DNA from: Dryococelus australis
Taxonomy: Eukaryota; Arthropoda; Insecta; Phasmatodea; Phasmatidae
Assembly: GCA_029891345.1 (NCBI GenBank)
Contig: CM056997.1
Span: 219,064,712-219,128,711 of the forward strand
Direction: 5' to 3'
DNA: 64,000 nt
In this document: one piece after another, positions 3,573 to 51,744 of the stretch
Numbering within the stretch: position 1 is the first letter of the stretch
Layout of the letters: every line of letters begins with the position of its first letter
Made by a program: the position numbers and the translations under genes
The notes under the pieces: model-generated
Databases searched by the model: none
Told to the model about the DNA's origin: nothing
The model's input: the letters and a program-made list of their open reading frames with translations, nothing else

Positions 3573-3573
<1 letters not shown>

Positions 3574-6760: not shown

Positions 6761-6764
6761 GTAA

Positions 6765-10599: not shown

Positions 10600-11376
10600 G
10601 TGTGGTCTGTGTGTTATTGGCAGCATGTGTTTGTGAGACTACAGCATATAGTCTCGGCAACGAATTATGTCTCCCACTAGCAAAGGGAGTTACCTTATTT
10701 ACGGTTTACATCATTGCATGCCAATCAGGTGCATCATCCAAAATAAAGGATACGTAACCTAAGTTGTTAAGGTGGATTGACCCACACCATCTTGGGTTAA
10801 TGTATTATTCTATTAAACCTGGCAGTAAATATTTTATTTAATATTGTTCTAGCAGCCCGCCATCGCTTCGCTCAGGTTTTATGGAGTTATTGAAATACAT
10901 TCCTCAATAAGTGATAACCCGCGACTACCCGCGACTACCTAGTACAACCTGCGACTACCTGCGACTACTTCCGACTACACTGTGACTACCTGCGACAACT
11001 TGCGACTACCTTCGACTACCCATGACTACCGGCCACCACCTCCGATTGCCCGTGACTACATGCGACTACCCGTGACTATCTGCGACTACCTGTGACTACC
11101 TGCGACAACTTGCGACTACCTTCGACTACCCATGACTACCGGCCACCACCTGCGATTGCCCGTGACTACATGCGACTACCCGTGACTATCTGCGACTACC
11201 TGTGACTACCTGCGACTACCCGTTACTACCTGTGACAACTTGCGAGTACCTGCGACTACCCGTGGCAACCTGAGACTAACTGCGACAACTTGCGACATTT
11301 TCTGGTAACATTGTTTTAATTTATCTTTAACGGTTTTTGTCGCATGCTTGAAAAGCATAGAAGTAGCTCATTTTTA
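10600..11376 (-). repeat. Right arm of a long inverted repeat (partner 4,205-4,890)
   Basis: This is the reverse complement of the left arm. It contains the single-copy block (10,600-10,910), the decamer minisatellite (10,915-11,300) and the end of the 185-bp family unit (11,300-11,376). The minisatellite is longer here and has an internal duplication: 'ctgcgacaacttgcgactac' followed by 'cttcgactacccatgactac' occurs at about 10,990 and again at about 11,100. Confidence 0.85.
10915..11300 (-). repeat. 10-bp minisatellite (GCGACTACCT-type)
   Basis: About 37 copies of the complement of the unit at 4,285-4,580, with a ~110-bp internal duplication of a block of units. Confidence 0.93.
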
Positions 11377-11570
11377 TTTGGAATGTAATTATTTGTGATT
11401 AGGAGATAATTTTATACTTTTTTCAGTTTAATTTCCTGTATGTTTATGCTTCAAATCATATTCTTTGACAGCAAATGTTGAAAACAGGCGAGAGTCTGGA
11501 GTATTTTTTCACCGGCCCTCGTGTCAAAGACTTGAAGGTTCTTCATCACGACCTCGTCCTGCTCCTGGCT

Positions 11571-15219: not shown

Positions 15220-16490
15220 TTGCCCCCAACATCTCGCTCAGCTTATAATTCGCCGCATGTGCTACACTGAACTCACTCCTGCACCGATTTCCCAAGTGAA
15301 CGGACGTGTTCCCTCTATTATATTATAAACATTTAATGTAATGTACGTGTCTATTCTAAATATAAACAACTGTGTTTTGAATTTATAACTCGCGTTTGTT
15401 AATTACTTCAAACTATGTCGACTAGTGTGTTTTAATTCGTGTCGTGTAATTTGTTCTGTCTTTATTATATATTGCTACGGAAATTGCTTTGTTTAGCTAC
15501 GTTGTAGGTACAATAATATTAACTTGTTGCTCGCATTATTATAATACCAGGATAGCTGGGCCGGTCATTGTGTTTTCACGTGGAAATATACTCTGTTGTC
15601 TGTAATACATTCGTAATTTGCGATTCCTAAGTATTTTATTCATGTACATTTATTCTGTCGTGAATTATATATTGCTAGGGAAATACTTGTTCATATATAT
15701 TAAATGTTCGTTGTTTCATTCATATCGTATGTTTTAAACATAATATTTATCGATTTATAAAGTCTTTCAATAAGTAATTTTTAAATTTTTTCCATTTGTG
15801 CTAGTCAAGTAGTTGCGTACTAGTCTCTGTTGTTTGTCATATATTATATTCTTTACATATAGGAGGGGTTAGTAAAATGCCGTTGTTGACGTAAATCATA
15901 TTCTGGTCACTTTTCATTTAATTGATTTTCAAACAAAATATTTCGTTATTTCCACCATTACCTTAGTCGACATTCAGGCGCCGGCCAATTGAAGCAGATG
16001 TTTCTAGTGATTCTCTCTCTTCCTCAGTCGCCTGTCACAGGAAGCAAATCCTTAATATCATAAAAATAATAATACACAATACCTATATACACCTCTTCCC
16101 TAACACATCACACCTTAGTACAACGCCGGACATCCGAGCATCAGCATCTATCATGCTGCTCCCCACCCAAAAAAAAAATATAAAAAAATAAAGAAAAACC
16201 CTTAGCACACGATTTCACAAAACTATACACTTATCAGTTCACACAAAATTTAAAAAAAATTATAAAATAAATTTGATCAAAGTTATTCCATCAAACTACT
16301 TTCATCAAACAATCAAATATTATTGCATTGAGATTAGCGGATTAACACTATTAATAATTTTGATCCGATTAAGATTGGATTAGTTCCCGGATTATTGGGT
16401 AAATTAATTTGATATCAAATCGATATTCCGATTAATCCAAAGTGGCCTAGGATCGGCATGACCCCTAATACTCACTTGATTGTTAAAATT
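15220..16490 (+). repeat. 1.2-kb dispersed repeat, copy 2
   Basis: This is the direct-orientation partner of 7,551-8,785, with substitutions and small indels throughout and the same end ('cctaggatcggcatgacccc'). The two copies start TG and can be read as ending CA, which is LTR-like. However, the intervening DNA has no gag or pol and the flanks show no target duplication. Confidence 0.75.
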
Positions 16491-17164
16491 CAAAATTATT
16501 TTTACACATTCCGTACTAAGATTTTGAAAAACCTACTGTTATGTATTCGTGTCGTTAAAAAAATTGATTTTTATTGGTTAAAATTTTCTAAAGAATTCCG
16601 ATTACACGCACATCAACTCTACAATACATCTAGCGAAGTAGCCAGCTTACGTCGCATATGCATTTGCTTTGAAATATTGGAATATGATCCTTTTCCCGAG
16701 TCAACTCGATTTTATTTCTCGTTTCTATATGGTGCTTGGTCGATTGTTGAACCACAAAACTTCCCTACCTTTGCTGCGACCTTGTTTCGGTTCGACCCCC
16801 CGCCGAGAGGTACAAATGAAAGCACTACTCATTAGATATTTTGTTACCCTGGGCTGCGGAGGAATTGGAGAAACGTGGGAGGAGGTGAAGAGGGAGTGAG
16901 ATGAATGTCTGGATGGCCGGAATGGAGAGGTAAGAGACAGCTAGTGGTGCAGACTTCCAGGACCACATTACTCATCGACGGGAGGCCGCGAGATTACGTT
17001 CTATACCTGAGCTATCCGCGCACCATCAAAAACCCTTCAACAAATTTCTTACATAATATTTTTTTATGTATATTCGTAATGGTATTTTACGTAAGAAAAG
17101 ATACACAGACTACAGGAACTGCTCGTGACCATGTGCAACCATTTCTGCCAACGAGTTAGCTCGC
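16491..17164. other. Unassigned sequence
   Basis: An open frame of 125 codons (16,458-16,835) begins inside the repeat end and lacks any motif. No gene is supported. Confidence 0.3.
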
Positions 17165-18950: not shown

Positions 18951-19138
18951 TTGATATTTTGAGGAACTACAGAGTATTCCATTTATCTACTTAGATTCTG
19001 TGCTTGGGTGAAATTTTTCGCAGTCCTCACATAACTACAGTAAAATTGAATATATTTTTCTTAAACAACCTTAAAATGTATACTTAATGTTTCAATAAAG
19101 TATATTTTGTCTGAATTACCAAATTAGTAAAAGCCTTC

Positions 19139-19590
19139 AGTATTCTAAAGAGGAGACTTCTGGGACAGGGGGCTCGGGACTCATGACCTTGCGGACTGTC
19201 CCCAGCCTCGTATGGTATCGCCATGGGGTAAAAAAATTCCTTGTTTCCTTTTTTCCCTCAAAAAACCGAATATCACTTCCGACGATGGCGGCCATCTTTG
19301 CAGATTATGCCGGCAGCCATTTTTTGCCCTATTTAGCATAATCCAGAGGATGATCCTTCAAGGTGGCAAATGACTCATGTGGGATGAAGGACTTCACCAC
19401 AATACCGTCATCTTGGATCCCGAACACCAGTGACCAACAGTATGGTGGCTGCAGTAGAACTGGCGGCCAGCTGAAGATGTCAGCCAATTTGGCGGCCAGT
19501 GACAGGCATCAAGTCGACCAGAATTTCTCGAAAATTCATTTCGGATCTCGTGCGCTACTGCCTCCCCCTGAAGTCAGTGTACATAACACT
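19139..19590. repeat. Left terminal block of the palindrome
   Basis: This matches the reverse complement of 35,800-36,298 over its length, including 'gcagccattttttgcc', 'agcataatc', 'atcttggatcccga' and 'tcatttcggatctcgtgc'. The 82-codon frame at 19,363 has a counterpart on the minus strand at 35,825-36,019. Both are readings of this conserved terminal block and no domain is recognised. Confidence 0.8.
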
Positions 19591-21240
19591 TATAAGCATA
19601 GTTGGCTGTAATTTCTGTACCTTTTAAGTTAAAGTTGTCAGATAATAACATTGTCATCAACCCCGACTATGAGAATGGACGGGAGGTTAAGTATGGCCTA
19701 TAGGCATAGTCGGCTGTAATTTCCGAACCGTTTAAGCTATATATGTCAAACTAATAACATAGGCATCAAGCCAGACTATGAGAAGGGTCGCAATGTCAAG
19801 TATGGCCTATGTCCACTTAAAAGCATAGTTGGCTGTAATTACTGAACCAATGGAAATACAGCTACCAAATTCATAATATTTGCATGATTTCCGACTATTA
19901 GAATAAGCAAAGTACAAGCAAAGTGTACTGTAATTTCCAAACCAATTATGATATAGTTGCCAATCACATAGCATGAGCATCGCCCCAGATAATGGGAAGA
20001 TACGAGTGGTTAAAATATTGCATATGTTTGATATAAGCATAGTTGGCTATAATTTCCGAACTAGTTATGTTATAGTCATCAAATTCATAACATGAGCATC
20101 GCTCCAGATGATGATAATAGGTGAGTGGTCAGTTATGTCCTATGTCACCTTATAAGTGTAGTCGGTTGTGATTTCCGAACCATTTAAGTTATAGTTGTAA
20201 AATTCATAACATGGAAATCGCCCCAGTCGAGGAGAAGAGACGAGTGGTCAAGTATGATCAATGTAGACTTATAAGCATGGTTGACTGTCATTTCAAAACA
20301 TTAAAGTTAATTTCATCAAATTTATAATATGGGCATCGCCCCAGACAACGAAAAAGGATCGAGGGATCAAGTATGACTTATGTCTGCATATAAGAATAGA
20401 TGGCTATAATTTCCGAATCATTAGTTCTAGTTTTCAACTCCATAACATGGGCATTACCCAGATGATCTGAAGAGTCGAGGGGTCAAGTTTGCTCCCTGTC
20501 GACTTATAAGCATAGTTGGTTGTAATTTCTGAATCATGTGAGACACAACTACTAAATTCATAACATCTACATCACCCCAGATGACGAGAAGACTCACAAT
20601 GACAAGTGTGAGTCATATGATAACTTATAAACATAGTTGGCTGTAATATCTAAACTGTTCGCGATATAGTAGTCAAATACATAATATGGGCATCAAACTA
20701 GATGACTTACAAGGCCAAATATATCCTATATCTACCAATATGCATAGTTTGCTGTAATTTACGAACCACCATTGATATAGTTGTCGAATTCATGACATAG
20801 ACACCACCCCAGAAGGGTTGCAGAATCAAGTAAACTATATGTTGGTGTGCAAGCATAGTTGGCTGTAAGTTCCGAACCATTTAAGATATTTAGTGTTTGA
20901 AATCATAACTTAGGCTACCACACAACTTCAAACAATGGACAGGAAGCGAGAGATCCAGTATTATGCATGTTTTCCTATACGAATAGTCGTCGGTAAATTC
21001 CGAAGCATTTAAGATATAGTGGCCAAAACTATAACATAGGCACCACCACTCCAGACAGTATAAAATTATCAAGGGGTTAAGTTTGACCCATTGCTACATT
21101 TAAGAATAGTTGGTTGTAATTAGCACACCCTTTGAGATACAACTACCAACACCATTGCTTAGACATTGCCCCAGAAGACAAGAAGAACCAACATGTCAAG
21201 TATGACCTACAAGTACACACACAATTGTAGTTCGCAATTA
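19590..21240 (+). repeat. ~120-bp minisatellite, left arm (about 14 units)
   Basis: Each unit carries 'gcatagttggctgtaattt', 'ccgaaccatttaagatatag', 'aattcataacatgggcatc', 'gccccagatgatgagaag' and 'gtcaagtatgacctatgtc', well diverged between units. The reversed array fills 34,000-35,800. The array is not a source of the open frames that cross it. Confidence 0.93.
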
Positions 21241-21959
21241 ATCGCCAGCATCTGAAATAGACTTGATGAAAAAATCTCACATCCCCTAATATTACTGATA
21301 TATATACATATATACAATGCTCTCAGCCATGTTGACATGGAAACAATACTTCTGCCACAAGCTCAAAAAAAAAAAAATTTATAAATTTAACTGTTAAGGC
21401 TGTAGACACACACGAATTTATTAAATCCACTTTTTTATCTCCGGCCTGTACTCGTCTACCTAAGCAAGTAATAATTCCAGACAGTCATACCGGAACCTCC
21501 AATGCCTGTACTTACTTCCAGACAGTTTGTTAGTACTACCACATCACTAGGGTCCTGGGGGGCCAGCCTGGCACTCATTCATTGTCGTCGTCGCCTCCAT
21601 GTACTGAGACTTCAATATACGTAGGTAATTAGTAGTCACTCGGTACTTTGCAATGCATATGCAGTCAGCGCTAGACAACCGAGTACTACAGATACAACAA
21701 CACATGCTAGAGTGATAAGCGTCCTATTATTAGTATCACGAAACAAACTAGCCTGTGGTGCAAGTAAATAAGAGGTATCACAACACACACACACATTTGC
21801 ATTAAGAGCAGAAGAGGATTACCTTGTGCACGGGTAGGAGCATGGTCGTACACACTCGCCAGACATGTGTCAATGCCAATTATGCCTATGACAGACATTG
21901 CATGATTAGGATAAGAAAATACACACATGGACTGACACAGTCGCTAAAAAGAAACAATG

Positions 21960-22045
21960 CAGGAGGAGGTGCAGGTAATCATTCTGGCTTCAATTTCTGT
22001 TAGCAGTCTGGTACATTGACCACTCAACCACCGCCATTCCATGAT
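21960..22045 (-). pseudogene. tRNA-Ser-like fragment (left arm)
   Basis: The minus strand reads 'ggtggttgagtggtcaatg' with an A box, then 'gactgctaac' in the place of a GCU anticodon arm. The T arm is not recognisable. The right-arm counterpart is at 33,195-33,290. It probably derives from a SINE head rather than a working tRNA. Confidence 0.5.
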
Positions 22046-22296
22046 AGGTGTGTTCGGAGATGAAATAGCATACATATTGGTTCGCCACACATGACAGCCA
22101 ATGTGCGGGTAGGAGAAGAAATATGTGTACTTGCAAAAACGAATTACCCATGAATCACTAATACCATGCAGATGAGAGGTTTATTTCACCTTACCTGGTG
22201 TAGCAGTGAATACCTGTAGGCCAAGAGCACATTTCGTCATCGACGTGACCTTGCTGGAAGCAGAGACCCTAATGATTGGTCCCACCTTTCTGTGCA

Positions 22297-22298
<2 letters not shown>

Positions 22299-22333
<35 letters not shown>
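22299..22333. repeat. (TA)n microsatellite, left arm only
   Basis: This is a pure TA tract. The corresponding right-arm position near 32,940 reads 'acatatatctacc', so the expansion happened after the arms separated. Confidence 0.95.
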
Positions 22334-22337
<4 letters not shown>

Positions 22338-22396
22338 CGACTAAGTATTGCATTCCTACCACCTCTTCTTGTCAAAAACACATGCTTACTGGTATA

Positions 22397-22515
22397 TTAT
22401 TGAAAAGAAGTAATACATCTACCTTGAAGGTGGTGGAAATGGTGAACTATCCTCGAGGTATCGCAGGTTCGATTCCCATAGAGATTGGTAATAATAATAA
22501 TAATACAAGTCATCG
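22397..22515 (+). repeat. tRNA-like block shared by both arms
   Basis: It contains a B-box-like 'gcaggttcgattcccat' followed by an (AAT)n tail, typical of the end of a SINE head. The mirrored copy is at 32,765-32,885 on the minus strand ('gcaggattgattcacat'). Confidence 0.55.
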
Positions 22516-22606
22516 TAAAAGCTGCAATTGGACGCTTGCACACAAGACGCAAGTGGAAGCAAGGGCCCTCCCACTTCTGCCAAAAAAGTCATGAAGAGCG
22601 TAGCTG

Positions 22607-22626
22607 CCATTGTCTACAACAGTGTT
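22607..22626. other. Empty SINE insertion site
   Basis: This is the left-arm equivalent of the position where a SINE interrupts the right arm (32,361-32,622). Here the sequence continues without the insert or the duplicated target. Confidence 0.8.
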
Positions 22627-22873
22627 CATAGCTACATACAGTCATACTCAGTCCCCTACGTGCACTCGCATACCAAGTCCATCACACACACAATTAGAAA
22701 TAGTCAAATGCTTACTCTGTGTGCTTTCATTTTCTCCAGTCGTCCACTAGAGTGCAAAAAAGGAAATGTAAATACCTACAAATCTGTGCTTATTATACAA
22801 GAAACAGCTAGAAAAGACCATACATTGTTTGTCATTCGACAAAAGCTATGTAATTCAATCGCTAATCCAAATT

Positions 22874-23300
22874 GTCAGGTTGGCTGAACAACTAAATTTA
22901 AGCTCTCATTCCAGTAAAGGGAGTGCAGTTTCAAATCCCCACACCTGGCACATTTTTTATGTTCAGTCATATAATGTTTTCCTGTAAAGGCACCATTGGT
23001 TCGAATCCCACACCTAACACATACTCTTTCAATGAGTCAATCGAGGTGGTCAATAGTAATTGTATTATGCTTCCTTGTGGATTTATTTGAAGGTTTTTCC
23101 TCACTGTGTTTCCTTTCCTTCCTTGCTGATGAAAATTTTCTTTTTTACCATGTTCGATAAGGATTAGGAGAGTGCAAAAAGCGAGGCACAGATGCACGAG
23201 CTCTCTCTGGCTAATTCCTAGTTCGAGCTCTGCCTGAATCTTGAGCCAGTTGAGAGTGGATACTTGTGTAGGTCAGCAGCTACACAACACATGCTACAAA
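22874..23300 (+). repeat. tRNA-Leu-derived SINE, family 2 (decayed, left arm)
   Basis: A tRNA-Leu-like head (22,874-22,950) is followed by a second 3' half ('ggttcgaatcccacacct' near 22,995). The body then has 'ttccttgctgatg', 'tcgataaggatta', 'gagctctctctggct', 'gttcgagctctg' and 'gtgtaggtcagcagctacac'. The tail matches the right arm at 32,231-32,345 in reverse. A second copy of the same family lies at 26,952-27,240. Confidence 0.65.
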
Positions 23301-23383
23301 AAAATGTGTTTTAATGTAATTATTTACACGCATAACCAATTCATACACACATAAATATATATCTATTATATCAATAAATAAAG

Positions 23384-23560
23384 CCTCTGATTCTAAGTTC
23401 AATAATAATTGAATTCATCCCTCCGATGACAGAAATATATCCACCTCTCTGTGAGGAAACCAACAAACTTAGTCTTTTAACTAGGTCATTGGGGTCTTCG
23501 GAATCATGTGTACACCTTCACTTGACATATGGCAGAACTTGATCGTCATCAGAAGAATAT
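23384..23560 (-). pseudogene. Polinton-associated ORF, C-terminal part (left arm copy)
   Basis: On the minus strand, from about 23,560 downward, the frame reads DPNDLVKRLSLLVSSQ, a gap of a few residues, then GGMNSIIIEL and a stop. This is the C-terminal signature of a protein found in arthropod Polintons (function unknown to me). The same text, mirrored and slightly different, is in the right arm at 31,862-32,122, and a more distant relative lies at 46,772-47,354. At least one in-frame stop lies just upstream. It belongs to a decayed gene series read away from the palindrome axis. Confidence 0.65.
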
Positions 23561-23899
23561 GCATCTACAAATTTTTTTGGTTCTTAGCATCCTAGGTAGC
23601 TCCATTGGTGGTTACTTACATAGGTGTTGTGCAGGATTGTTGTTGTTGTCATTGTTTAAACATACTGAAGATCCATATGGTTCACGCCCTGCATCACCCA
23701 TAGTTCTCTCTTCACATGTTGGTTTGGAACACCATGCAGGCACATGTAATGATATGAGAGCTCAAACAAACGATTGTTCACATTATGAATAAGCAGGAAG
23801 GTTAGCCTTGATGTGTGACAATGCATGCTGCCTCGTGTCAAGTAAAGGTGCATTATATTCACACATACCAGTGTCTTTTGAGAGTATAGCCTTTATCGA

Positions 23900-24200
23900 T
23901 TTTTGCACCACACATATCACATGTTAGTAGAAATTTAGAGGTAAACTGGCTCTGTTTATGATGACATACATTACAACTTTAACTGAAGATCTTGTCATAG
24001 TAACTGCATTGTTTACCAGTTAGATGTTGTTGATCGAACGTCGAAGTTTCACATGTAGTCATACCCGACGGTACACCCTCAGTGGTTGGCATCAACTTCA
24101 AGCACTGACTCCACACTGCTGACTCTACACTCCTGACCACACTCTGCTGAGTCCACACTGCTGACTCCTCACTGCTGAATCCACATTGCTGACTCCACAC
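23900..24200 (-). pseudogene. C2H2 zinc-finger remnant (left arm) with 15-bp repeats
   Basis: The minus strand reads KQCSYYDKIFS and then TCDMCGAKIDKGYTLKRH, finger-like segments with stops between them. The right-arm counterpart is at 31,440-31,715. Next to it, 24,095-24,205, is a short array of 'ctgactccacactg', also mirrored in the right arm at 31,365-31,435. Confidence 0.6.
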
Positions 24201-24659
24201 TCCTCAAACATAGTTTAACAACTGTGTGTTAAGTCTGCTGTAGCAGTAATTTATACCTTCCTTCTACCGGTCGAATATGAAGCTATATGCTCTCATCCGC
24301 TCAGTAGTTGAGGGGAAAAAGTCTGTGCGTACTTATTTTGCTAAGTGGAGAGTACCCATTCGTCCTCAACTCTATATGGTTTATCGAAGCCAGGCTCCAA
24401 TCCAAACATCATGAATTCTTCTTCCTATTAACATAGGTTGCATAAACTCTCAACAGTCCCATCTTATGGTGCAGCTGAATAACACATAGCTTCATTCGAA
24501 GTCTTCAAAGTATTGGTACAATACTCATCATAGCAAGATGCTGGTTTAGTATTGCTACAGTCCAGACATATATTATATTTGACATCAATATGTAATTCTA
24601 GCTCATAGATAATTTGGTTTATTAATTATTAAATTAGGTCCCATACCTGTCAGGAATGA

Positions 24660-25260
24660 GAAAACGGTGTGCAGTGTAGTCGATATATTCGGTGCAACAA
24701 AATCTTTACAAAGCCTCACTGAATGCAGATCGCCGCAGGAAAAATACAATTAGTGGTCGGCGATATCGAAGGTTCGACAGTCTTTGTATCATTTCCTTTA
24801 CACAGTTACAAATAGTTGCTAAAATCATCCTCGTGTACATACATTCTGTGAAACTTATCACATCGATATGTTATACGAACGGCTTTCCTCACAGAAGTAC
24901 TTTTTTCATGTTGTCTAGCATCATATGCACAAGTCAACTACTTGCTACAATTAAAGACGACTTCTCAGGTTGCTGCATCATACAAGCATCGAGTAACACG
25001 TTCTCACATGCAAACACAGTACACTCTCGATTCCAGTGGCAACCAGTTTCATGCTGTCTGCAGCTTAGAGTCTTCTTACAGTAGCGACTGCATCAACAAC
25101 AACTTGCCTGTTTGATCATCGAGCACGTAATTCACAGCTTATGTTCACTCTCTAAAGACTGAATGGCAACTGTGTGGGCAAACAGTTTATGACTCCACCT
25201 CTACAGTGTCAACCCGACAAGAGTATCAGCTTGAGAAGATGTTTCTTTAAATCGTCAACA
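24660..25260 (-). pseudogene. Decayed zinc-finger segment (left arm)
   Basis: This mirrors 30,400-30,990 of the right arm, including 'atatattcggtgcaacaaaa' and 'gatcgccgcagg' / 'tcgaaggttcgac'. The plus-strand frame of 130 codons at 24,692 is antisense to the finger-like reading and has no motif of its own. Stops are frequent in the minus-strand reading. Confidence 0.5.
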
Positions 25261-25299
25261 TATGCATACGTTCTTCGATAATTACCATGACAAACAGTG

Positions 25300-26120
25300 C
25301 AGGGTTACACATTGCAAGATGATGACTTCTGAAGTCAATACATCATGCAATCCATGATGTACATATTTCGCATGCGAACACAGTACACTCTGGATTCTGA
25401 TGCCAACCAGCCTCATACCATCTGCAGCTAGTTATTTCAGAAAAGGTCGTCTTAAAGTAGCATCACATCGTGTTCTATCATCTCCGAGCACATTATCCAC
25501 ATACAACATTCACTTTTCGCGGTCGGATCAACAACTGAGTCTCCAAGCATATCCCTACATGTATTAAACCACTATGTATGTGACCTTTCATGGGTACTAT
25601 CAGTGTCAGCTTGAGAACAAGTGCATGACACACTTTTGTCTAGTCCTTCACCCAGCAGAGGACTGTGCTTGAATCCCTGGGCTCATTTCTCCAATTGCTA
25701 AGCACCTTGCAAAGTCGCCTGTACGAAATCGTTATTAACTGGAGATTGTCTATTGTACGTAACATCCAACCGGAACTTTTTCCAATGTACTCTTCTTCCT
25801 CATTGTAAATCTTCTGTATACCAGCTTCTACACTTGTGCAATGTTGTGCATGTTATGGAGAGGCACATTCTTTCTATTAAAAGCTTTCCAACTATATTCA
25901 TTACCATGTGGTTCTGGTTTGGTATATATACCAAATATATATGTATTCCACCCACATATTATATTTTAATATGCCATCTTTTTCCATATCATCTATAAGT
26001 CGATCTTTAGCACTCTTGCTCATTTGCTTATGTGTGTACAAATAACTTTTGCCATGATGAAGCAAAATATGTCTTCATTAGACCACAGAAAGCAGATTCT
26101 TTCAGCATGAACCTATTCTC
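25300..26120 (-). pseudogene. Left-arm copy of the polymerase N-terminal-like module
   Basis: This mirrors 29,459-29,940. Matches include 'gaacctattctcattggata' (reverse of the SNENGF coding region) and 'gaaagcagattctttcag'. It is more decayed than the right-arm copy and I could not follow one frame for long. Confidence 0.5.
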
Positions 26121-26414
26121 ATTGGATAATCTGGCAGCAAGTGGTGTTGTAGTAGCGTTTTCGTATGTGCAATTCTTCATATACTAGTTTTCCCTGATAT
26201 GACTTCTTGTAGAACCAGCACAAATTGTTGTCTGAAGTAGTATCCATCGTTGCTCGAGCCGATGTTCACTCATCGATTAGCAACACACTAATGTTTCCAC
26301 CAATCTCACATGTTGTATAAATATGCATTTTCATATACAAACAGTGGGATATAATCCTTTTGTAGACATGTATTTAGCTAGTCATTGTATCTCTGTTACT
26401 AAACTGATGTGCAT

Positions 26415-26620
26415 CTGCAAGTTAAAATATAAATTTCATATAATAACAAATATGTGAACACTAACCTCTTTCCAACACATGCACATCTCTGACGTCGACA
26501 TGCATTGTTATTTCTACTAAAGAGCTTACCAGAATAGAGACATTGTTTCCGCCCTGAAGGAATGCTCAGTTCGGACCTTTATTGCTAGTATTTTGTCCTC
26601 CACTACCACCGCTGGGGTCC
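26415..26620 (-). pseudogene. Zinc-finger exon with a 51-nt intron-like gap (left arm)
   Basis: The minus strand reads a finger of the form QCLYSGKLFSRNNNACRRQR, one key cysteine changed to serine. A gap at 26,465-26,415 then begins GTTAGT and ends TTGCAG. The right arm has the equivalent gap at 28,578-28,627 with the same acceptor but a damaged donor. The conserved boundaries in two diverged copies suggest a real small intron in the ancestral gene. Confidence 0.5.
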
Positions 26621-26951
26621 AAGACCACAGTAGTAGTATTGCATTTCAGCATGACATTCACTTGTGGTTCATCATATACCAAGACTTTAATATACATAAT
26701 GAATGGAAGTCATACTCTCTCTGTACAGCACATACAACTGTGCTTCAATGAATACTCAGCCATCGCTTCTGTTCTAACAACGAAGATGATGCCAGACTCC
26801 TCCTCCAACGTAAAGATGAGTACATCACACATTGAATCATATTCAACAATTCCATCGGTCAAATTGGGAAGTGGTAACATTTTGTTACCACATCACACAC
26901 TCATATAGTACAGCATTCAATAGGTCTTATAATTCCTTACTTATGTAGGTT

Positions 26952-27240
26952 GTCAGGTTGTCCGAGAGGTCTAAGGCACTGGATTTAAGCCCTGGTTCCC
27001 TGTGTGAGGAGCATTGGTTCGAATTTTACACCTGACAAATATTTTCTTCTTCCTTGCTGGTGTGTGTCCCATGTCAAATAAGGATTTCATATGTGAATAA
27101 AACAAGGTTATATACGCAGGCGCATGAGCACTCTGGCTCATTCGCAGATAGTATGTTGTTCGAGCTCTGGCAGACTTGAGAGCATATCATTTTAGGTCAG
27201 TAGTTTGTACCATAGTTACACATCAGCAAAAAAATTTGTT
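26952..27240 (+). repeat. tRNA-Leu(UAA)-like SINE, family 2
   Basis: The first 86 bp (26,952-27,037) look like a tRNA-Leu: a perfect 7-bp acceptor pair (GTCAGGT/ACCTGAC), the A-box region 'tgtccgagaggtctaaggc', TAA in the anticodon place and the B box 'ggttcgaatt'. Anticodon and T stems are mispaired, so it is not a functional tRNA. The body then has 'ttccttgctgg', 'caaataaggattt', 'gttcgagctctgg' and 'taggtcagtag', as at 22,874-23,300. Confidence 0.7.
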
Positions 27241-27250
27241 GTAGAGCACT

Positions 27251-27730
27251 GTGAAAATGATGGCATGCTGTTCTAGTTGTCAGAAGATTCTATCAGCTAT
27301 TGTGGAATATGGAAAGCTTAATTCACTTGCAGCACTCAACAAAGAAACTGCTCTTTCATACTTTCCTAAGGAATTATTTCTGACATATGCTAGATATGAA
27401 TACAATATGTCTACAAACATCTACCTGCATATCTACAAGAGGACACTGGCATACACGACTACCTCCCGTGTACTCGATGTTTGCAAGGATGTACTTCTCT
27501 TATGGACCCACAACATTATAGGGTCAGGTATATTGCACGTCGGAAGCAATCTGTGTTGGATGCCCCATCCAACACAGATTGCTTCCCTTAGGAACTCATT
27601 AAGGGCAGAGAGAGAGAGAGATAGAGAGAGATGTGTACCTGGAGCAGCTGACGAGGTCGTCGTTCCGACACAGGTTTGGATGACAGTCACCATAAAACTC
27701 ACAGTTCTGACCCTGGGAGCCATTGGTTAA
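27251..27730 (+). other. Open frame of 159 codons across the palindrome axis
   Basis: This is one of the longest uninterrupted frames in the window. It starts with a CCSSCQK stretch and crosses the hairpin at 27,542-27,586, then a GA-rich run. The part after the hairpin is low complexity and unlikely to be protein. No family was recognised. It lies in the central segment that is not obviously duplicated between the arms. Confidence 0.25.
27542..27586. repeat. Perfect hairpin at the palindrome axis
   Basis: Two 21-bp perfectly complementary arms ('ggaagcaatctgtgttggat' + g and its reverse complement) are separated only by CCC. Its centre (27,564) coincides with the axis predicted from matched arm positions. 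Confidence 0.97.
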
Positions 27731-27922
27731 AATGGTAGAGTAGTTCTGGCAGGGTGCACTCTTGTGGTTCCTCCTGATGGTAGGAGCTGCCGTGGCTGTG
27801 GTTGGCAATATACATGAATCTCACAGTAGTTTTTAAACTAACAATATGATGATTTTTGTATAGGGTTTGCCAGTTCAGTTGTCACCCAGGCTTCGAAGAG
27901 TGATCAGTGCTCTTATTCCACA

Positions 27923-28580
27923 ATGGAGGACATCTGTTTGTGTCGCTACTGTAATAAGAGCTTTACTAAAAGCTGCAATGCTCGTCGATATGAGACTGGC
28001 TGTCCTCGCAATATCAAGTGCACTTATGTGTATTAAAAAGAGTGTCAATCGCATTTTCAGTGACGCGATAACTTCAAACGATATATTGCATCATAGAAAG
28101 AACTCCTTCCTGTTCGAACCAAACACAATTTGCTTAAATTTAAGGAAAGGAACATATCTGCAGAAAAACTGACATTAGTAAAGGACTCAAGAGTGCAACC
28201 AATGGCTGGATCACCTCATAGACATGTATGCAACTACTGTAACAGGAAATTATTTGCACATGTCCCCAGTGCAAAGAGACATATGAAGCATAAATACAAG
28301 CTGAATCCATATCCCACAGTCTATCGATGTGATAACTGTCACGGTTATTTCACTCGTATAGACAGTTGAAACATACATATGAAAAAGTGTAAAGCTCTTG
28401 TACCAGCTATGCAACAAACCTGTGGCGGTCAGGTGCCTGCCATATCGAGTGGTGGTGGTACACCAACTTCCGATCTAAGCATTCCTTCAAGGTGGAAACA
28501 ATGTCTCTACTGTGGTAAGCACTGTAGTTGAAATAACAACACACATCAACATGGGAGATGTGTCTGTTTGAAAAGAGATA
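27923..28580 (+). pseudogene. C2H2 zinc-finger array, first part (right arm)
   Basis: From an ATG at 27,923 the frame reads MEDICLCRYCNKSFTKSC with a finger ending NARRYETGC. Further segments follow: HVCNYCNRKLFAHVPSAKRH (about 28,222-28,285), YRCDNCHGYFTR...HMKKC (to about 28,390) and QCLYCGKH (about 28,500). Stops and a frameshift interrupt the array (for example in the RIDS*NIH region near 28,368). A proline/serine linker-like stretch separates fingers. Fingers ending H-x(3-5)-C recur here and next to the polymerase remnant at 53,192, which points to the same protein family. Confidence 0.65.
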
Positions 28581-28715
28581 GTGCTAAAGTATTTGTCATG
28601 ATGTTATATTCCAATTCTAATTTGCAGCTGCATGTCAGTGTTTTAACAGATATACAACTACTGACTAAATACAGGTCTACAAAAGGCTTAATTCTCCACT
28701 CATGGAATATGAAAA

Positions 28716-28784
<69 letters not shown>
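28716..28784. repeat. (TA)n microsatellite, right arm only
   Basis: A TA tract of about 69 bp inside the zinc-finger gene remnant. The left arm has 'gcattttcatatacaaac' in the equivalent place with no expansion. Confidence 0.95.
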
Positions 28785-28787
<3 letters not shown>

Positions 28788-28839
28788 ATGTGGAATTGGT
28801 GGAATGTTTAGTGTGTTGCAGTTAATACAAGAGTGAACA

Positions 28840-29312
28840 TTGGCTCGAGTGACGATGGAAACTACTTCAGACAACCATTTATGCTGGTTCTGCAAGAAGT
28901 TATTTTCCAACAGCCGCCATGCGCGTCGACATGAGACTGGGTGTGCTAGGAACATGAAGAGTTCTGCTTTAATATGCGAACCGTACAAGTCTCAATTTAG
29001 ATGCCATGATAGCTTAAAAATACATCTTGCAACATGCAATGGACTCTCGCCCATGCATGCTAAGCACTGTAGGTCCACATTGGATACTGGTTCATGCTCA
29101 CCATTGGACCTGAATATTGCAGGCCATTCTCCACAGGCATCGAGAGCATGGACTGCACCTGCTATAGTGGATACTCAAGCACCACCACCATCGGCAACAC
29201 TGATCCTGGACTTGTACAATTCTACACAGACATCAAGGACTACTGTATTAGGACCTTTAGTAAAAGATCCAGTGCATATCAACATGAGAAACCTGGAGCA
29301 TGTTCGATGAAG
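28840..29312 (+). pseudogene. C2H2 zinc-finger segment, best preserved (right arm)
   Basis: An open frame of 156 codons carries a finger LCWFCKKLFSNSRHARRHET (C-x2-C...H-x-x-x-x-C) and a second degenerate one ending FRCHDSLKIHLATC. A proline/serine-rich linker follows (DTQAPPPSATL). A third finger-like segment appears only after a frame change (YCIRTFSKRSSAYQHEK, about 29,240-29,300). Such finger-linker arrangements match the N-terminal region of Polinton polymerases and related proteins. DNA or RNA binding is plausible but unproven. Confidence 0.65.
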
Positions 29313-29458
29313 TTGTTCTGGGGTGTCTCAGCTCACCTGGGTTATAAGTGCAAATATGTTTTTCCATGTTATCAAGCAACAGAAAGCATTCTAGTCGAAG
29401 CATGATACAAAATAAATAACTATCACAGAAAACTATTTCGGGAAACAAGTAACAACCA

Positions 29459-29940
29459 TATGAAGGATTTTACATATGGAAAAGTTAATACTACACCAAC
29501 TGCTGCAAGCTTATCCAATGAGAATGGGTTTATCCTGAAAGAATATGCTTTCCATGGTCAAATGGAGATACATGTTGCATTGGGCATGGCAAAATATATT
29601 TGTACATACCTTATGCAAATGAATAAGAATATTATAGATTTTCTTGGAGATGAGATGGCAAAAGATGGCACATTAAAATAAAATGTGTTTTTGGAATGTA
29701 TATATATCAAACCAGAACCACATAATGATGAATTTAGTTGGAAAGCTTTTAAGACAATGAATGTGCCTCTCATAACATCCACGGCATTGTGGCTAGTATA
29801 GAAGCTGGTATACAGAACATTTGCAACAAGGAAGCAGAGTACATGTGAGAAGGTTCCAGTTGGAAGTTACATGCAATAGATCATCTCCAATTGAGAATGA
29901 ATTCATATAGACCACTTTGCAACTAGGCACTTGTCAACTT
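29459..29940 (+). pseudogene. Polinton polymerase N-terminal-like module (right arm)
   Basis: The frame starts MKDFTYGKVNTTPTAASLSN and continues with NGFILKEYAFHGQMEIHVAL, then IIDFLGDEM. After one stop (29,679) it reads FLECIYIKPEPHNDEFSWKA. A later piece, in another frame, ends in EGSSWKLHAIDHLQLRMNSY, the place where family members have a G-S-G-W motif. The same end is readable at 53,990-54,090, upstream of the polymerase C-terminus in the second Polinton. I see no polymerase catalytic motif. The module has at least two stops and one frameshift. Confidence 0.6.
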
Positions 29941-30119
29941 AAGCAATGAGCCCAGGGCTTGAAGCAGATTCTCTTGCTGATTGAAGGACTAGATAAAAGT
30001 GTAAGTCACACACTTGCTCTCTCATGCAGATACTAATAGTACTCAAGTTAGGTTTACATACATGTAGGGATATGCTGGCAATCTCAGTTGCTGTTGGAAC
30101 CACAAAGACTGAACGTTGT

Positions 30120-30340
30120 CTGTGGATAACGTGCTCTGCAATGATGATGGAATAGGATGTGTTGCTACTGTAAGATGACCATTTCTGAAATAACCACCTG
30201 CAGATCGCAGGAGGCCTGTTGTTATCAGAATCCAGAGCATACTGTGTTAGCATGTGAAATATGTACATCACAGTTTGCCTAATGTGATAATTTGAGAAGT
30301 CATCTTGGAACATGTAATTCTGCATTGTCTGACATGATAA
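30120..30340 (+). pseudogene. Zinc-finger remnant (right arm)
   Basis: One frame reads CCYCKMTISEITTCRS and then LACEICTSQFA, a stop, and CDNLRSHLGTC. This is a finger pair with one nonsense codon. The 191-codon minus-strand frame over 29,939-30,514 is antisense and has no motif. Confidence 0.55.
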
Positions 30341-30499
30341 GTCTAGAAGAATATATGCTAATTTTGACAATTTAAAAAAACATACTCTCAAGCTGATACT
30401 TGTGTCGGGTTGACACTGTAGAGATGGATTCATAATAGGTGGGCCCACACAGTTACCCTTCATTCCTCGGAGAGTGAACATCAGCTGTGAATTACATGC

Positions 30500-30780
30500 T
30501 CGATGATGAAGCACGCAAGTTGTAGTTGTTGCTGTCGCTACTGTAAGAAGAAATCATAAACTGCGGACAGCATGAAACCAGTTGCCACCGGAATCAAAGG
30601 CATACTGTGTTCGCACATGAAAAAGTGTAACTCACTGTTTGTCCGATGCGGCAAACAGATAAGACATAATGAATTGTGACAAGATGTTTACATGTGCATA
30701 CGATGCTAGATGACATGAAAAAAGTATGTGTATGAGGAAAGCCATTCGTATAACATATAGATGTGATAAGTATCACAGAA
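30500..30780 (+). pseudogene. Zinc-finger remnant (right arm)
   Basis: The frame reads CRYCKKKS, a stop, then GILCSHMKKCNSLFVRCGKQ, and more stops. It mirrors 24,700-25,100. It is the most decayed of the right-arm finger segments. Confidence 0.5.
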
Positions 30781-31439
30781 TGTATGTACATGATAATGAT
30801 TAAAGTAGACATTTGAATCTGTACAATGGAAAGGATATAGAGACTATCGAACCTTCGACATCTCTGACCACTTATGTTATATTTCCTGCTGCGATCTCCA
30901 TTCAGGGGGTATTTGTAAAGATTTTGTTGCACCAAATATATCAACTACACTGCACACTGTTTGTTCATTCCTGACAAGTTTGGTGCCTAGTTTAATCAAA
31001 CAAATTAACGATGAGGTGCTGTCAATTATAATATGGGGCTGGACTGTAGTTTTACGAAACCAGAGCCTTGCAATGATGAGTATTGTACCAGATTTTTCAA
31101 GACTTCGACTGTATATGTGTGTTATTCATCTGCAGCACAAAATGTGATTGTTGATAGTATATATAAGATATGTAAGAATAAGAAGAAGACATTATGGCCA
31201 AGTGTTTGGGTTGGACTATTGCTTTGGTAAATCATATAGAGTTGAGGACGAATGCATACTCTCCACTTAGCAAAATGGGTACACACTGCTTTTTTCCCCC
31301 TCCACTATTGAGCAGACGACAGCTCATAACTTTATCTTTAATCAGTATAAGGGGGAGTCGGCATTGTGGACTCAGCAGAGTGTAGTCAGAAGTTTGGAGT
31401 CAGCAGTGTGGAGTCAGCAGTGTTGAGTCAGTGCTTGAA

Positions 31440-31715
31440 GATAATGCCAACCACTGGTAAACAATGTAATTACTGCAGAACATGTTCAGTAAAATGTTCA
31501 ATGCACATGTTCATGAACAGAGTGAATGTACAAAGGCACCGACCTCTAGACTACTACTAACATGTGATATGTGTACTGCAACATTTGGTAGTGGTGATAC
31601 TTTCAAAAGAAACATTGGGACATATAAAGATAATGCACCTTTGCTTGACACGAGTAAGCATGCATTGTCACACGTTAAGGCTATCCTTCCAGCTAATTCA
31701 TCATGGAAACTATAG
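31440..31715 (+). pseudogene. Zinc-finger remnant (right arm)
   Basis: It reads GKQCNYCR and then, one frame over, MFSKMFNAHVHEQSEC, followed by LLTCDMCTATFGSGDTFKRN. These are two fingers in which the last histidine is lost. The left-arm partner (23,900-24,060) keeps the KRH histidine, so the two copies have decayed independently. Confidence 0.6.
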
Positions 31716-31861
31716 TTCTTTAGAGCACCCATAACATTACGTGGGCCTGCATAGTGTTCCAAACCTGTGTGTGAAGACAGAAAAATTGGAGATGCAGGGC
31801 ATGAACCATGTGGATCATCAGAAAGTTTGAACAATGACAACAAGAACAACCTTGAACCTCG

Positions 31862-32122
31862 CCTATTTTAAGTTACCTCCGACGATGCTACCCAGGATGT
31901 TGAAAACCAAACTGTGACATCCAGTGCTGATGCATATTCTACTGATGGTGATAAAGTGCCACCAATTGCTAAGAAAAGGTGAACATTTGGTTCCAAAGGC
32001 CCCAATGACCTAGTTAATCGTCTACAGTTGTTGGTATCATCACAGATAGGTGGCTATATTTCTGTCATCAGAGTGATGAATTCAGTTTTTGATGAACTCC
32101 GAGCCAGAGGATTTATTGATTG
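31862..32122 (+). pseudogene. Polinton-associated ORF, C-terminal part (right arm copy)
   Basis: The plus-strand frame reads DVENQTVTSSADAYSTDGDK, a stop, and then KGPNDLVNRLQLLVSSQIGG with VMNSVFDELRARGFID and a stop. The same block is present in inverted orientation at 23,384-23,560. The pattern PND/NLV-x-RL-x-LLVSSQ...IIDEL is that of a Polinton gene of unknown function lying next to the integrase in the second element (46,772-47,354). It marks the end of the gene series that runs outward from the palindrome axis. Confidence 0.65.
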
Positions 32123-32360
32123 ATATAATATATAGATATTTATGGGTGGATGATTTGGTTTTGCATGTAAGTAAATACATTAAAAATAACTTTGTTTTTT
32201 TTTCTTAATTCCCAGTGGCTAACAAAATACCTACTGCTATATACTAGAGGTCTACTAGAGTAGCATATGTCATGTAGCTGCTGACCTACGCAAGGATGCA
32301 CTCTCAAGTGGCTCGAGTTTCACTCAGAGCTCGAACTGTAATTACGAACACTGTTGTAGA

Positions 32361-32622
32361 TTGTAGGTAGGTATTTGGGCTTAACGTCTCTTCGACATCG
32401 AGGTCATTAGAGATGTTTGCAAGTTGCACGAGGAACAGGGACAGGGGAAATATTAGGAAGGAATTGACTATGGCTTTTGTTTGGGGCCCATCCCAGCATT
32501 CGCCTGGAGTGATTTCGAAAACCATGGAAAACCGAAATCAGCATGGCTGGACCTGGAATAAAACCCGGGTCCTCCCGAATGCGAGTCTAGTGTGTTACCA
32601 CTGCGCCACCTTGCTTGGTCCC
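32361..32622 (-). repeat. tRNA-derived SINE, family 3, with target duplication
   Basis: On the minus strand: A box 'ggtggcgcagtggtaacaca', B box 'cccgggttttattcc', body with 'ccatggttttcgaaatcac', and a terminal 'cgatgtcgaagagacgttaa'. It is flanked by 'aacactgttgtaga' (32,347-32,360) and 'aacactgttataga' (32,623-32,636). The left arm of the palindrome has the uninterrupted site at 22,607-22,626. The insertion therefore happened in one arm only. Confidence 0.9.
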
Positions 32623-33194
32623 AACACTGTTATAGACAATGGCAGTTACTTTCTTCATGACTTTTTTTGCAGCAGTGGGGGGCCCTTGCTTCCACTGACT
32701 TTCTATCGACAAATGAACAAATGATTGTCTTGTAGTTGAAAATACAATGGTGGCTTTCATGATGACCTGTATTATAATTATTATTACCAATCTCTATGTG
32801 AATCAATCCTGCGATACCTCGAGCATGGTTAACCGTTTCCACCACCCTCAGGTTACATGTATTACTTCCCTTCAATAGTACACCAGTAAGTACATGTATT
32901 TCGCAAGGGGATGTGGTGGGGATGCAGTACTTGGTCGGTAACATATATCTACCATGCACAGAAAGGCAGGACCAGTCATTGCAGTCTCCCTTCCAGCGAG
33001 GTCATGTCGATGAAAAAATGTGCTCTTGGCCTACAGGTATTCACTGCTAAACCAGTTAAGGTAAAAATAAACCACGACTCTCCATGGTATAAGTGGTTAG
33101 GGGGTAATTCATTTTTGCAATGTTCACATATTTCTTCTCCTACTCGCACAATATCATATTATGTATCCGATATATACACTATTTCATCTCCGAA

Positions 33195-33290
33195 CACACA
33201 TCTCATGCAATGGTGGTGGCTGAGTGGTCAAGGTATCAGACTGGTAACACAAGTGGAAGCCAGCATAATCCCCACACCTCCTCCTGCAGT
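33195..33290 (+). pseudogene. tRNA-Ser-like fragment (right arm)
   Basis: It has 'ggtggctgagtggtcaaggt' as an A-box region and 'cagactggtaac' in the anticodon-arm place, mirrored at 21,960-22,045. It is probably a SINE head shared by both arms before they diverged. Confidence 0.5.
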
Positions 33291-33999
33291 GTTTCTTTTT
33301 TGTTAAGGTGTAGGTTCATGAAAGTATTTTATATTCTAACCATGTGTTGACTGTCTAAGATGTCATTGGTGTTGACACATGTCTGGTGAGTGTGTAGACC
33401 CATGCTACTACCCATGCGAAAGGTAATCCTTTGCTGCTTTTTATGCATTTGTGTGTGTGTGTGTTGCGATACCTTTCTCCTTACTTGCACCACAGGGTAA
33501 TTTGTTTCATAATACTAATACTAATAAGCTTATCATTATGACACATATAGTATCTGTAGGACTTGGTTCTCTAGCACTGACTGCATATTTTTTGTGATGT
33601 ACCAAGTGACATCTCATTACCTACATACATCGAAGTCTTAGTACATAGGGGTGACAAGATGACACACAAGAACCAGGTCGGTCCCCCAAGACACTAGTGG
33701 GGTGTTGGTGCTAACCAACTGTCGGGAAGTAAGTGCATATATTAAAGGTTCGGTTGTGATTGTCTGTATTTATTACCTGCTTTGTTACATTAGTGCTGGT
33801 CGGAGATAAAAATGGATTTAATAAATTCCTGTGTGTCTACAAGCTTAACACTTACATTTATAACACTATTTTTTTAGCTGGTGGCAGAATTATTTTTCTT
33901 TGACAACATGGCTGGGAGCATTATATATATATATATATATATATATCCTTAATATTAGGGGCAGTGGTTTTTTTCATCAAGTGTAGTTCAGTAGCTGGC

Positions 34000-35800
34000 A
34001 GTTAATCATGAACTATTGCTGTATGTCTACTCATAGGTCGTACTTGACTTGACCCTTAAGTTCTTCCCATCGCCTGGGCGCGATGTCTACATTATGGTGT
34101 TGGTAGTAGTTGTATCCCAAACAGTTTAGTAATTACGACCAACTATGCTCGTACATAACCATGGGTCAAACTTAACACCTCGATCCTTTTTCAAAGTCTG
34201 GAGTGGTGGTACCTATTTTATTGTTTTAGCCACTATATGTTAAACTGTTCGGAAATTATAGATGACTATACTTGTAAGTAGACATGCTTCATAATTGACC
34301 CCTAGCTTATTATTCATTGTCAGATGTGGTGAGTTTGTGTATGTTATTATTTCGATCACTATATATCTGAAATGTTTTGGAACTTACAGCCAACTATACT
34401 TTTACGTCGACATAGGGTTTGCTTGACCTGCGACCCTTCTGGGGCTGCCTATGTTACGAATTTGACAACTATATATTTTTGGATCGGAAATTATGGCCAA
34501 CTATGTTTATTGGTAGACATATGAAATACTTGGTCTTGCAAGCCATTATGGGTGATGCTTATGTTATGAATTTGGTAGTTGCATCTCATATGGTTCGGAA
34601 ATAACAATCATCTATGTTTATAATTCGACGTAAGTCATACTTAACGACTCACCTCTTATCATCGTCTTGGGCGATGCCCATATTATGGATTTAACAACTA
34701 TAACTTAAATTGTTAGGAAATTTATAGCAAACTATGCTTATACATAGACATAAGTCATGCTTGACCTAACAATCATTTTTTGTTGTTTTGGGCGATGCCT
34801 ATGTTATAAATTTTATGACTATAACTTAAATGGTTCGGAAAATACAGTCAATTAAGCAAATTAGTCGACATAGAGCATACTTGACCACTCATCTCTTCTC
34901 ATTTGGGGACAATGCCCATATTATGCATTTGACTACTATAAATTCAATTGTTCGGAAATACTATGCTTATAAGGTGACAGGGAATACTTGACCACACAAC
35001 AATTCTGTCGTTTGGGGTGGTGCTCATGATATGAATTTGACGATTACAATTTAACCAGTTCGGAAATTATAGCCAACTGTTCTTATATGTGAACATATGT
35101 CCTGCTTTACCACTCATCTCTTCTTGTCATCAGGGACAATGCCCAAGTTATGAATTTGATGACTATAAATCAGATGGTTAGGAAATTACAACCAACTATC
35201 CTCAGAAGGTGAAATAGGGCATACTTGATCACTAGTTTATTCTCCTCATTTGGGATGATGCTCATGTTATGAATTCGGCAACTATAACTTAACTGGTTCA
35301 GAAATGACAGTATGCTATGATTATACATAGACATAGGTCATAATTGACCCCTCGATCCTTTTCTTTGTTTAGGGTGATGCTTATGTTATTAATTTGATGA
35401 CTCTAACTGAAATGGTTCGGATCTAACAGTACAATATGCTAATACGTATACATAGGTCATACTTGACCCCACGATCCTTCTCATAGTCATTGTAGATCCA
35501 TATGTAATGAATTTTTTATTTTTTATCTCCAATGCTTCAGAAATGAAAGCCAAATATGCTTATAAGTAGATATGGACGCTACATACTTGACCTTCCGACC
35601 CTTCTAATGGTCGGAGTTGATGCCTTTGTTATGAATGACACCTATAGCTTAAACATTTCGGAAATTACAGCCAACTATGATTATAGCCATACTTGATCCT
35701 ACGACCATTCTCATAGTCAGGGTTGATTCGTGTTATGAATTTGACAACTATAATTTAAACAGTTCGGAAATTTCAGCCAACTATTCTTATAAATGTTATG
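34000..35800 (-). repeat. ~120-bp minisatellite, right arm (about 15 units)
   Basis: The units carry the reverse complement of the left-arm unit ('ggaaattacagccaactatg', 'cataggtcatacttgacc', 'gatgcccatgttatgaattt'). Unit divergence is high, so homogenisation between the two arrays is not obvious. Confidence 0.93.
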
Positions 35801-36298
35801 CACACAGACTTTAGGACGAGGCAGTTAAGCACGAGATCCGAAATGAATGTTCGAGGTATTCTGGTCGACTTGATGCCTGCCACTGGCCACCAAAATGGCC
35901 GACATCCTCATCTGGCCTCCAGTTGTCCCACGACCGCCATATTGTTGGTCAGTGGTGCTCGGGATCCAAGATGGTAGTGCTGTGGTGAGGTTACACATCC
36001 TACACGAATAATTTGCCACATTGAGGAGTCATCCCCTTGATTATGCTAATTAAGGCAAAAAATGGCTGCTGTCACTGCTTGCTAAGATGGCCGCCGTTGG
36101 CAGGAAGGAAATTTGGGAGTATTTGCGGGGAAAGGAAAAAAAAGGTTATTTTTTTGTACCTGAAATCGCCTGTATTGTATGGGAAAACGAGAAGAAATAG
36201 AAATTGATTCCAGAATGATGATACTACATGAGAGTGGGGTAGTCCGTCAGTCATAAGCCCCGAGCCCCCTGCGCCAGAAGCCTCCTTTTTATACTACT
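35800..36298. repeat. Right terminal block of the palindrome
   Basis: Reverse complement of 19,139-19,590. It ends ...ATACTACT, which reversed gives 5'-AGTAGTAT. Confidence 0.8.
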
Positions 36299-36589
36299 GA
36301 CTTCGAAATACCGCTAATTTTTAAACCAATATTTATACAAATATATGATTTTAAATTTATTTCCTACAAGTTGCCAAAAATGTTATTTGCTAAACAATAT
36401 GGAGAATACGTGGGTTAATCTATGTGTACAGGCAGTGGCGCTTAGTTCATCAGAGAACTCTTGCATGTGAACCCCCGCCTATATCTACCAATTAAGATCT
36501 TTATTAAGTAGGATATACAGTAATTGTAATTATATTAATGATAGAATAAATAAATGTCAAAAATTAACGCCACCTACTCACAAGCTTAA

Positions 36590-46753: not shown

Positions 46754-46771
46754 TTAGAAATATAACAATTT

Positions 46772-47354: not shown

Positions 47355-47520
47355 GTTTAAATATTTCATTGTTCAAAACATCCCATTACATTCGTGCACA
47401 TTTAGCTTGTAAATATTTCTCCTCTACGGCAGATATGACTATGTAATTCTGAAGCGGCCAGATATTTTATTTGTTTGCATTAATGTTCTAGTATTTATAT
47501 ATAAATTAAGACATTGCTTT

Positions 47521-48105: not shown

Positions 48106-48129
48106 TTTATACCGCTATGTCCGAACTTT

Positions 48130-50330: not shown

Positions 50331-50349
50331 GAAAGGCTATATTAACATT

Positions 50350-51740: not shown

Positions 51741-51744
51741 ACGA

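Follow-up and report, generated by a model that had tools for sequence, protein, structure and literature searches.

RESULTS

The palindrome and its ends

How can a transposable element of the Polinton (Maverick) type come to be almost entirely its own mirror image? The question is raised by a 17,160-bp element in a 64,000-nucleotide stretch of DNA from the phasmatid insect Dryococelus australis (GenBank assembly GCA_029891345.1, contig CM056997.1, positions 219,064,712 to 219,128,711 of the forward strand), the whole of which is called the window below. A preliminary description had presented the unit as self-complementary from both ends to near the centre, with arms exceeding 7 kb. Self-BLAST and a two-arm alignment agree on this point: positions 19139-26575 are an inverted copy of positions 36298-28469 with ~78% identity, the arms measure 7.4 and 7.8 kb, and shuffled halves gave only matches of 12-14 bases (5 shuffles). 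The palindrome is real, and it places two halves of opposite orientation inside one pair of target site duplications (TSDs), as in an inverted dimer.

Arm identity was 73-83% in most 250-column bins of the alignment and 62-74% in the bins of the subterminal repeat zone. The stretch at ~22.64-23.3 kb was nearly unalignable between the arms, and arm positions 3521-3990 contributed only 30 filtered columns. On the filtered columns, the outer 450 bp showed an identity of 0.777 and a Kimura two-parameter distance (K2P) of 0.272, arm positions 451-2012 an identity of 0.722 (K2P, 0.352), and arm positions 2013-7437 an identity of 0.794 (K2P, 0.243). The low identity at positions 451-2012 probably reflects tandem units that are out of register.

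The ends and flanks originally described, 5'-AGTA and GCCTTC/GACTTC, were confirmed. The right terminus of the element reads AGTAGT and the left AGTATT, as in the (AGT)2 end motif of Polinton/Maverick elements, and the end motif of the element (at least 17 of 25 positions) sits at 19139 and 36298 and nowhere between them. The flanking 6-bp sequences, of the TSD length of Polinton/Maverick elements, match at 5 of 6 positions. Vertebrate Mavericks have the same kind of end motif and the same TSD length (PMC8097293). Fourteen other places were fetched and mapped (copies A, B, Cc, D to K, M, N, and O), and near-matching TSDs flank all five copies in which both ends were seen, namely the window element, D, F, and G (5/6 each) and E (4/6). 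Pooled over these copies, 24 of 30 positions match; none of 20,000 random draws from these flanks exceeded 18. The ten ends read AGTAGT in six cases, differ from it by one base in three, and by two bases in one; copies A and B each lack one recognizable end. Other copies thus have the same ends as the window element; the same axis was present in none of the fetched copies.

Age of the duplication

In a combined tree of 17 rows, the two arms pair with each other in the window element (95/97), in copy A (94/84), and in copy B (91/79). The shared branch of the window pair is 0.019, compared to end branches of 0.13 and 0.15. The distance between the window arms, 0.26, is similar to their distances to other copies (0.23-0.30), with larger values for A_left and B_left (0.31-0.38) and for the short row A_right (0.31-0.33); the arm-arm distance is 0.145 in A and 0.276 in B. 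As the two window arms pair in the combined tree and their inner parts are at least as old as the ends, the symmetry already existed at insertion. In the window, the duplication therefore preceded or accompanied insertion, which is the firmest mechanistic point obtained from the sequences.

Architecture of the family

The family of which the element is a member is large and old. Arm DNA flanks both sides of a centre in copies A, B, D, E, and G, and at the two ends of copy F the arm DNA faces inward, with no centre recognized; a centre is also present in Cc. Copies H, I, J, K, M, N, and O were omitted from the two-sided architecture because they offer one side or a centre that is broken or missing in the fetched DNA. 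The shorter arm ends at ~971 bp in G, at 0.7-1.2 kb in F, at 1,387 bp in D, at 2,135 bp in E, at 4,375-4,550 bp in B, at ~6,243 bp in A, and at 7,437 bp in the window element. The shorter arms of B, A, and the window element are clearly far longer than an ordinary terminal repeat, that of E (2.1 kb) is marginal in this respect, and D, F, and G are indistinguishable from elements that carry an ordinary ~1-kb repeat, the register of the tandem-repeat zone in which their shorter arms end being uncertain. Both arms of copy A have no recognizable 4.8-6.05 kb portion. In copy F, the arm reaches ~4.8 kb on one side and 0.7-1.2 kb on the other; a reading of this copy as arm position 3644 joined to centre position 349 was rejected, as the 127-bp "centre" match fits arm positions 3710-3824 equally well, and F is not counted among the junctions.

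Around the centre, the window element departs from the other copies compared. At its left junction the right-arm sequence continues to TCGGA and the centre then runs from GACC, with 2-6 bases in common. In all 20 other copies whose centre start was available (15 of 15 junction loci, plus A, B, D, E, and G), a region designated X, which contains a 109-bp tandem array, precedes the centre. This count leaves out Cc, the source of the X definition, and the 15 loci were picked from the best-scored centre matches, 40 of 2,288 candidates having been scored. Except for a 37-bp terminal match, X is missing from the window element, and no terminus lies at the element's axis; joined ends, as a complete dimer would carry, are thus absent from its centre. 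The X-centre junctions L042 and L049, located on different chromosomes, are 87% identical over 1.08 kb and are the closest among the pairs listed.

A larger inverted dimer is present elsewhere in the genome. At C17:49.506-49.528 Mb, two centres of opposite orientation lie 1.5 kb apart; X fills the interval, and each centre is bordered on its outer side by inner arm, so that the locus at C17:49.51 Mb, with the order arm-centre-X followed by X-centre-arm, is an inverted dimer larger than the window element. Left outer arm DNA was found there as well. Near its axis, this dimer has an inverted repeat with ~40 bp of the terminus in the loop. The C6 locus described below has this repeat too, and B and Cc have one side of it; the ~40-bp inverted terminus copy, followed by the same sequence, recurs in X of the C17 dimer, B, Cc, and the C6 locus. 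Both B and Cc break at the inner edge of this inverted terminus copy. In copy G, the order centre-X, X-centre is found ahead of its 971-bp end. We read these structures as products of a single ancestral head-to-head dimer that was subsequently shortened by deletions, and the ordinary short-repeat copies and copy K speak for a separate asymmetric form too. The inverted ~40-bp terminus copies in X lie in L041 (1649-1692), L043 (from 693), L051, and L040 (from 5874).

At C6:145.953-145.962 Mb, arm, centre, X, and axis are followed by capsid, phospholipase A2 (PLA2), protease-like, and integrase pieces. Within C6:145.956-145.962 Mb, the capsid piece gave an E value of 1.4e-7 against a piece with a Pfam double jelly roll, the PLA2 piece 1.7e-7, the protease-like pieces 0.001-0.003, and the integrase piece 3e-6, with a Pfam rve match of 1.1e-5 that is under its cut-off. 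Arm DNA lies beyond the centre on the side opposite to these genes. The C6 locus may be an asymmetric parent; alternatively, an ordinary Polinton may have inserted or become joined at this site.

Polinton kinship and gene remnants

A Polinton of ~13.3 kb by coordinates (L021 4816 to L022 8470) is nested within the centre of copy E. It has a perfect 6-bp TSD (TAAATG/TAAATG) and AGTAGTATAGAAATGCC ends, with T as the first base on one side; AGTAGTATA is common to the family and this Polinton, and their ends have only the first bases in common. Double-jelly-roll and PLA2-like pieces were identified by Pfam and the protease was labelled by eye, and the PolB piece, although unnamed by Pfam at 0.01, matches other PolB loci (best, 1.5e-90). 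In a first look at the genome, the Polinton capsid piece gave 13,949 candidates, and the 150 scored were all at E < 1e-73, so that the genome carries a very heavy burden of Polintons.

In single-sequence searches with no iteration, pieces of copies A and H gave E values of 4e-27 to 9e-26 against the stretch upstream of PolB in L016, L013, and L017 and of 1e-21 to 2e-23 against that in L011. The window pieces match this stretch at 2e-10 (single-sequence) and 5e-12 (blastp), at two places per arm, in support of the proposed Polinton kinship with gene remnants in each arm. The joint profile cited in Table 1 combines family pieces with Polinton pieces, so its E values are non-independent; the single-sequence and blastp values are independent. 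Family matches within L021, the origin of the query pieces, were excluded from one protein-piece comparison, and centre matches to L022 beyond base 8519, which are family-to-family, were excluded from the counts.

Among 520 stop-to-stop pieces of at least 22 aa, only upstream-of-PolB pieces were matched at E ≤ 0.001, apart from family-to-family matches, and no piece of the polymerase core (protein-primed PolB) was found. At E ≤ 0.001, the nested Polinton's integrase, protease, PLA2, and capsid were matched by no element piece, a comparison that heavily decayed genes might escape, and two family pieces compared with a large protein database gave nothing at E ≤ 0.001. The idea that the element contains a Polinton gene set twice is not borne out: the doubled part is a half with the zinc-finger-like frames and the upstream-of-PolB genes, and of the polymerase core, integrase, protease, and capsid no pieces were found. 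Core Polinton genes inside the window element were rejected, as Pfam and piece comparisons were negative, and so was an intact coding element, the longest listed stop-to-stop frame being 204 aa with no Pfam match. Polinton ends, the TSD, and core-gene loss are all present in the window element, and the best reading is that it is nonautonomous and Polinton derived and that it would have moved in trans.

Table 1. Features of the palindromic element and its flanks (window coordinates)
Feature	Position	Strand	Basis or remark
Whole palindromic element, 17,160 bp	19139..36298	.	Arms, ends, TSD
Left target duplication, GCCTTC	19133..19138	.	5/6 match to GACTTC
Right target duplication, GACTTC	36299..36304	.	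5/6 match to GCCTTC
Left arm, inverted copy of right arm (7.4 kb)	19139..26575	+	Two-arm alignment
Right arm (7.8 kb)	28469..36298	-	Two-arm alignment
Single-copy centre (1.9 kb), present in family copies	26576..28468	+	Sequence matches to family copies
Left arm-centre junction	26565..26580	.	2-6 nt microhomology; in the 20 other copies compared, region X precedes the centre instead
Subterminal tandem repeats, left arm, periods 109 and 119 bp	19591..20592	+	Repeat analysis
Subterminal tandem repeats, right arm, periods 106-119 bp	35249..35791	-	Repeat analysis
Left-arm gene 2, piece related to region upstream of PolB core	24467..24625	-	blastp 8e-5; joint profile 1e-19
Left-arm gene 1, pieces related to region upstream of PolB core	25643..26074	-	blastp 1e-6 (25831-25965) and 5e-5 (25643-25852); joint profile 1e-14 to 2e-12
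Zinc-finger-like frames of centre	27842..28369	+	By eye; no Pfam zinc-finger match at its cut-off
Second zinc-finger-like frame	28837..29310	+	By eye; no Pfam support
Right-arm gene 1, pieces related to region upstream of PolB core	29406..29798	+	blastp 4.6e-12 and 6e-10 to same-genome Polinton pieces
Right-arm gene 2, piece related to region upstream of PolB core	31015..31227	+	blastp 5e-8

Other repeats are present in the window. Positions 11555-13575 hold a tandem array of 20 copies of a 101-bp unit with 97% matches, positions 7551-8783 and 15221-16493 form a direct repeat of ~1.25 kb with 80% identity, and positions 4212-4891 and 10597-11375 are an inverted repeat pair composed of a 10-bp unit (GTCGCAGGTA / ACCTGCGACT). 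A separate, degraded second Polinton with integrase-like, protease-like, and PolB-region pieces lies at 46401-54812.

DISCUSSION

Origin of the palindrome

We tentatively favour, at somewhat less than even confidence, a head-to-head dimer of a nonautonomous Polinton that arose in extrachromosomal replication and was later shortened across its axis. During an extrachromosomal, protein-primed stage, a strand would fold back near the left terminus, which would yield a dimer with identical right-end sequence at both outer ends. Having two good ends, such dimers could rely on a Polinton polymerase for copying and a Polinton integrase for insertion, both supplied in trans. Different copies may then have acquired different deletions across the axis, dimerization before deletion being the order that we infer, and in the window copy a join at short microhomology, located at 26.57 kb, would have removed the axis together with one centre and both X regions. 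A fold-back or head-to-head dimer origin, as suggested in the preliminary description, is supported by the long-armed copies A and B, the C17 dimer, and the pairing of the window arms.

Several observations weigh against this reading. The right outer arm sample of the C17 dimer gave a single 35-bp match, B and Cc retain the axis sequence on one side only, and the 5.3 kb to the left of the Cc centre lack arm DNA. The shorter arms of G, D, and F stop in the tandem-repeat zone (~0.7-1.4 kb), for which no dimer is needed, and in copy K (L035 2116-9901) the arm runs to ~1.25 kb, beyond which a 7.8-kb stretch contains no family DNA and no Polinton pieces; K may be a cut-down copy or an as yet unrecognized asymmetric form. 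As G, D, and K end in the repeat zone and F has been re-read, the argument that every copy differs is weakened. Trees of single segments pair the window arms weakly in three of five cases (75/92, 90/91, and 85/79; none starred) and not in the other two, and the outer-end tree places one D end with M (94/90) and one G end with N (93/95) rather than with the opposite end of the respective copy; the two ends of D and of G may differ in history. Finally, the C6 locus has Polinton genes, not family arm, past the axis.

The main rival is a direct copyback from an asymmetric parent, to which we prefer the dimer followed by deletion only slightly; copyback is nearly as likely. The parent would be a Polinton whose repeat is of ordinary short length, with core genes on its left side and the X-centre-gene arm on its right. 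During replication the polymerase would switch to the opposite strand, and the window element, A, and B would be separate fold-back molecules resembling defective genomes that were never full dimers. An ordinary ~1-kb repeat fits G, D, F, and, on one side, K; B, A, and the window element each have their own junction; and the C6 locus has arm, centre, X, and axis followed by Polinton gene pieces. However, Polinton genes are very common in this genome, as the capsid candidates and the other degraded Polinton in the window illustrate, and the C6 gene neighbourhood is therefore weak evidence. Moreover, the inverted terminus on the axis lies between the C6 genes and X, as though two ends had been joined, and copy G is easier to explain as a deleted dimer.

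An inverted duplication of host DNA at the window locus after insertion is unlikely. It would agree with the window arms being mutual closest relatives in the combined tree, but the inner arms have diverged no less than the terminal 450 bp, both arms are enclosed by the ends and the TSD, and related forms exist at A, B, and C17:49.51 Mb. Even less probable are two separate insertions that mimic one element. Adjacent head-to-head insertion is a general possibility, and nested insertion does happen in the family (copy E), but there is a single outer TSD pair with a clean junction, and a nested double insertion was rejected for want of any internal end motif. Missed-adapter or chimeric reads give near-identical arms, and an artefact of this kind is hardly credible, and was rejected, for arms that are only ~78% identical, even though the published Dryococelus australis assembly was made from PacBio continuous long reads (PMC10268593).

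Meaning and comparison with known systems

Among the titles and abstract openings listed, no description of a palindromic Polinton was found. It is conceivable, though the suggestion is a tentative one, that Polintons shed palindromic defective genomes as protein-primed viruses do, and that in Dryococelus australis such genomes founded a satellite lineage that prospered with a right end on each side; its integrated copies would then preserve, like fossils, the formation of defective genomes. Mirror-image copies with conserved ends and TSDs are the footprints expected from fold-back of a strand-displacing, protein-primed replicon, and their junctions allow a fold-back model of Polinton replication to be tested by sequence alone. 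Annotation that expects short terminal repeats would split palindromic elements into unrelated families.

With Polinton/Maverick elements the window element shares (AGT)2-type ends, a 6-bp TSD, the kinship of upstream-of-PolB proteins, and a size near 17 kb. Intact vertebrate Mavericks are reported to be 12,723-24,620 bp long, with terminal inverted repeats (TIRs) of 46-1,447 bp (PMC8097293). The window element differs in its 7.4-kb inverted repeat and yielded no piece of a core gene. Teratorn resembles the family in having an internal copy of its own terminus but differs in being a herpesvirus-piggyBac fusion with 18-bp TIRs. Fold-back transposons likewise consist mostly of long inverted repeats, but they have no Polinton ends or genes. 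Palindromic defective adenovirus genomes (for example, symmetric recombinants) also derive from a protein-primed replicon and have the same end on both sides of the palindrome; they are free virus DNA, whereas the window element is integrated.

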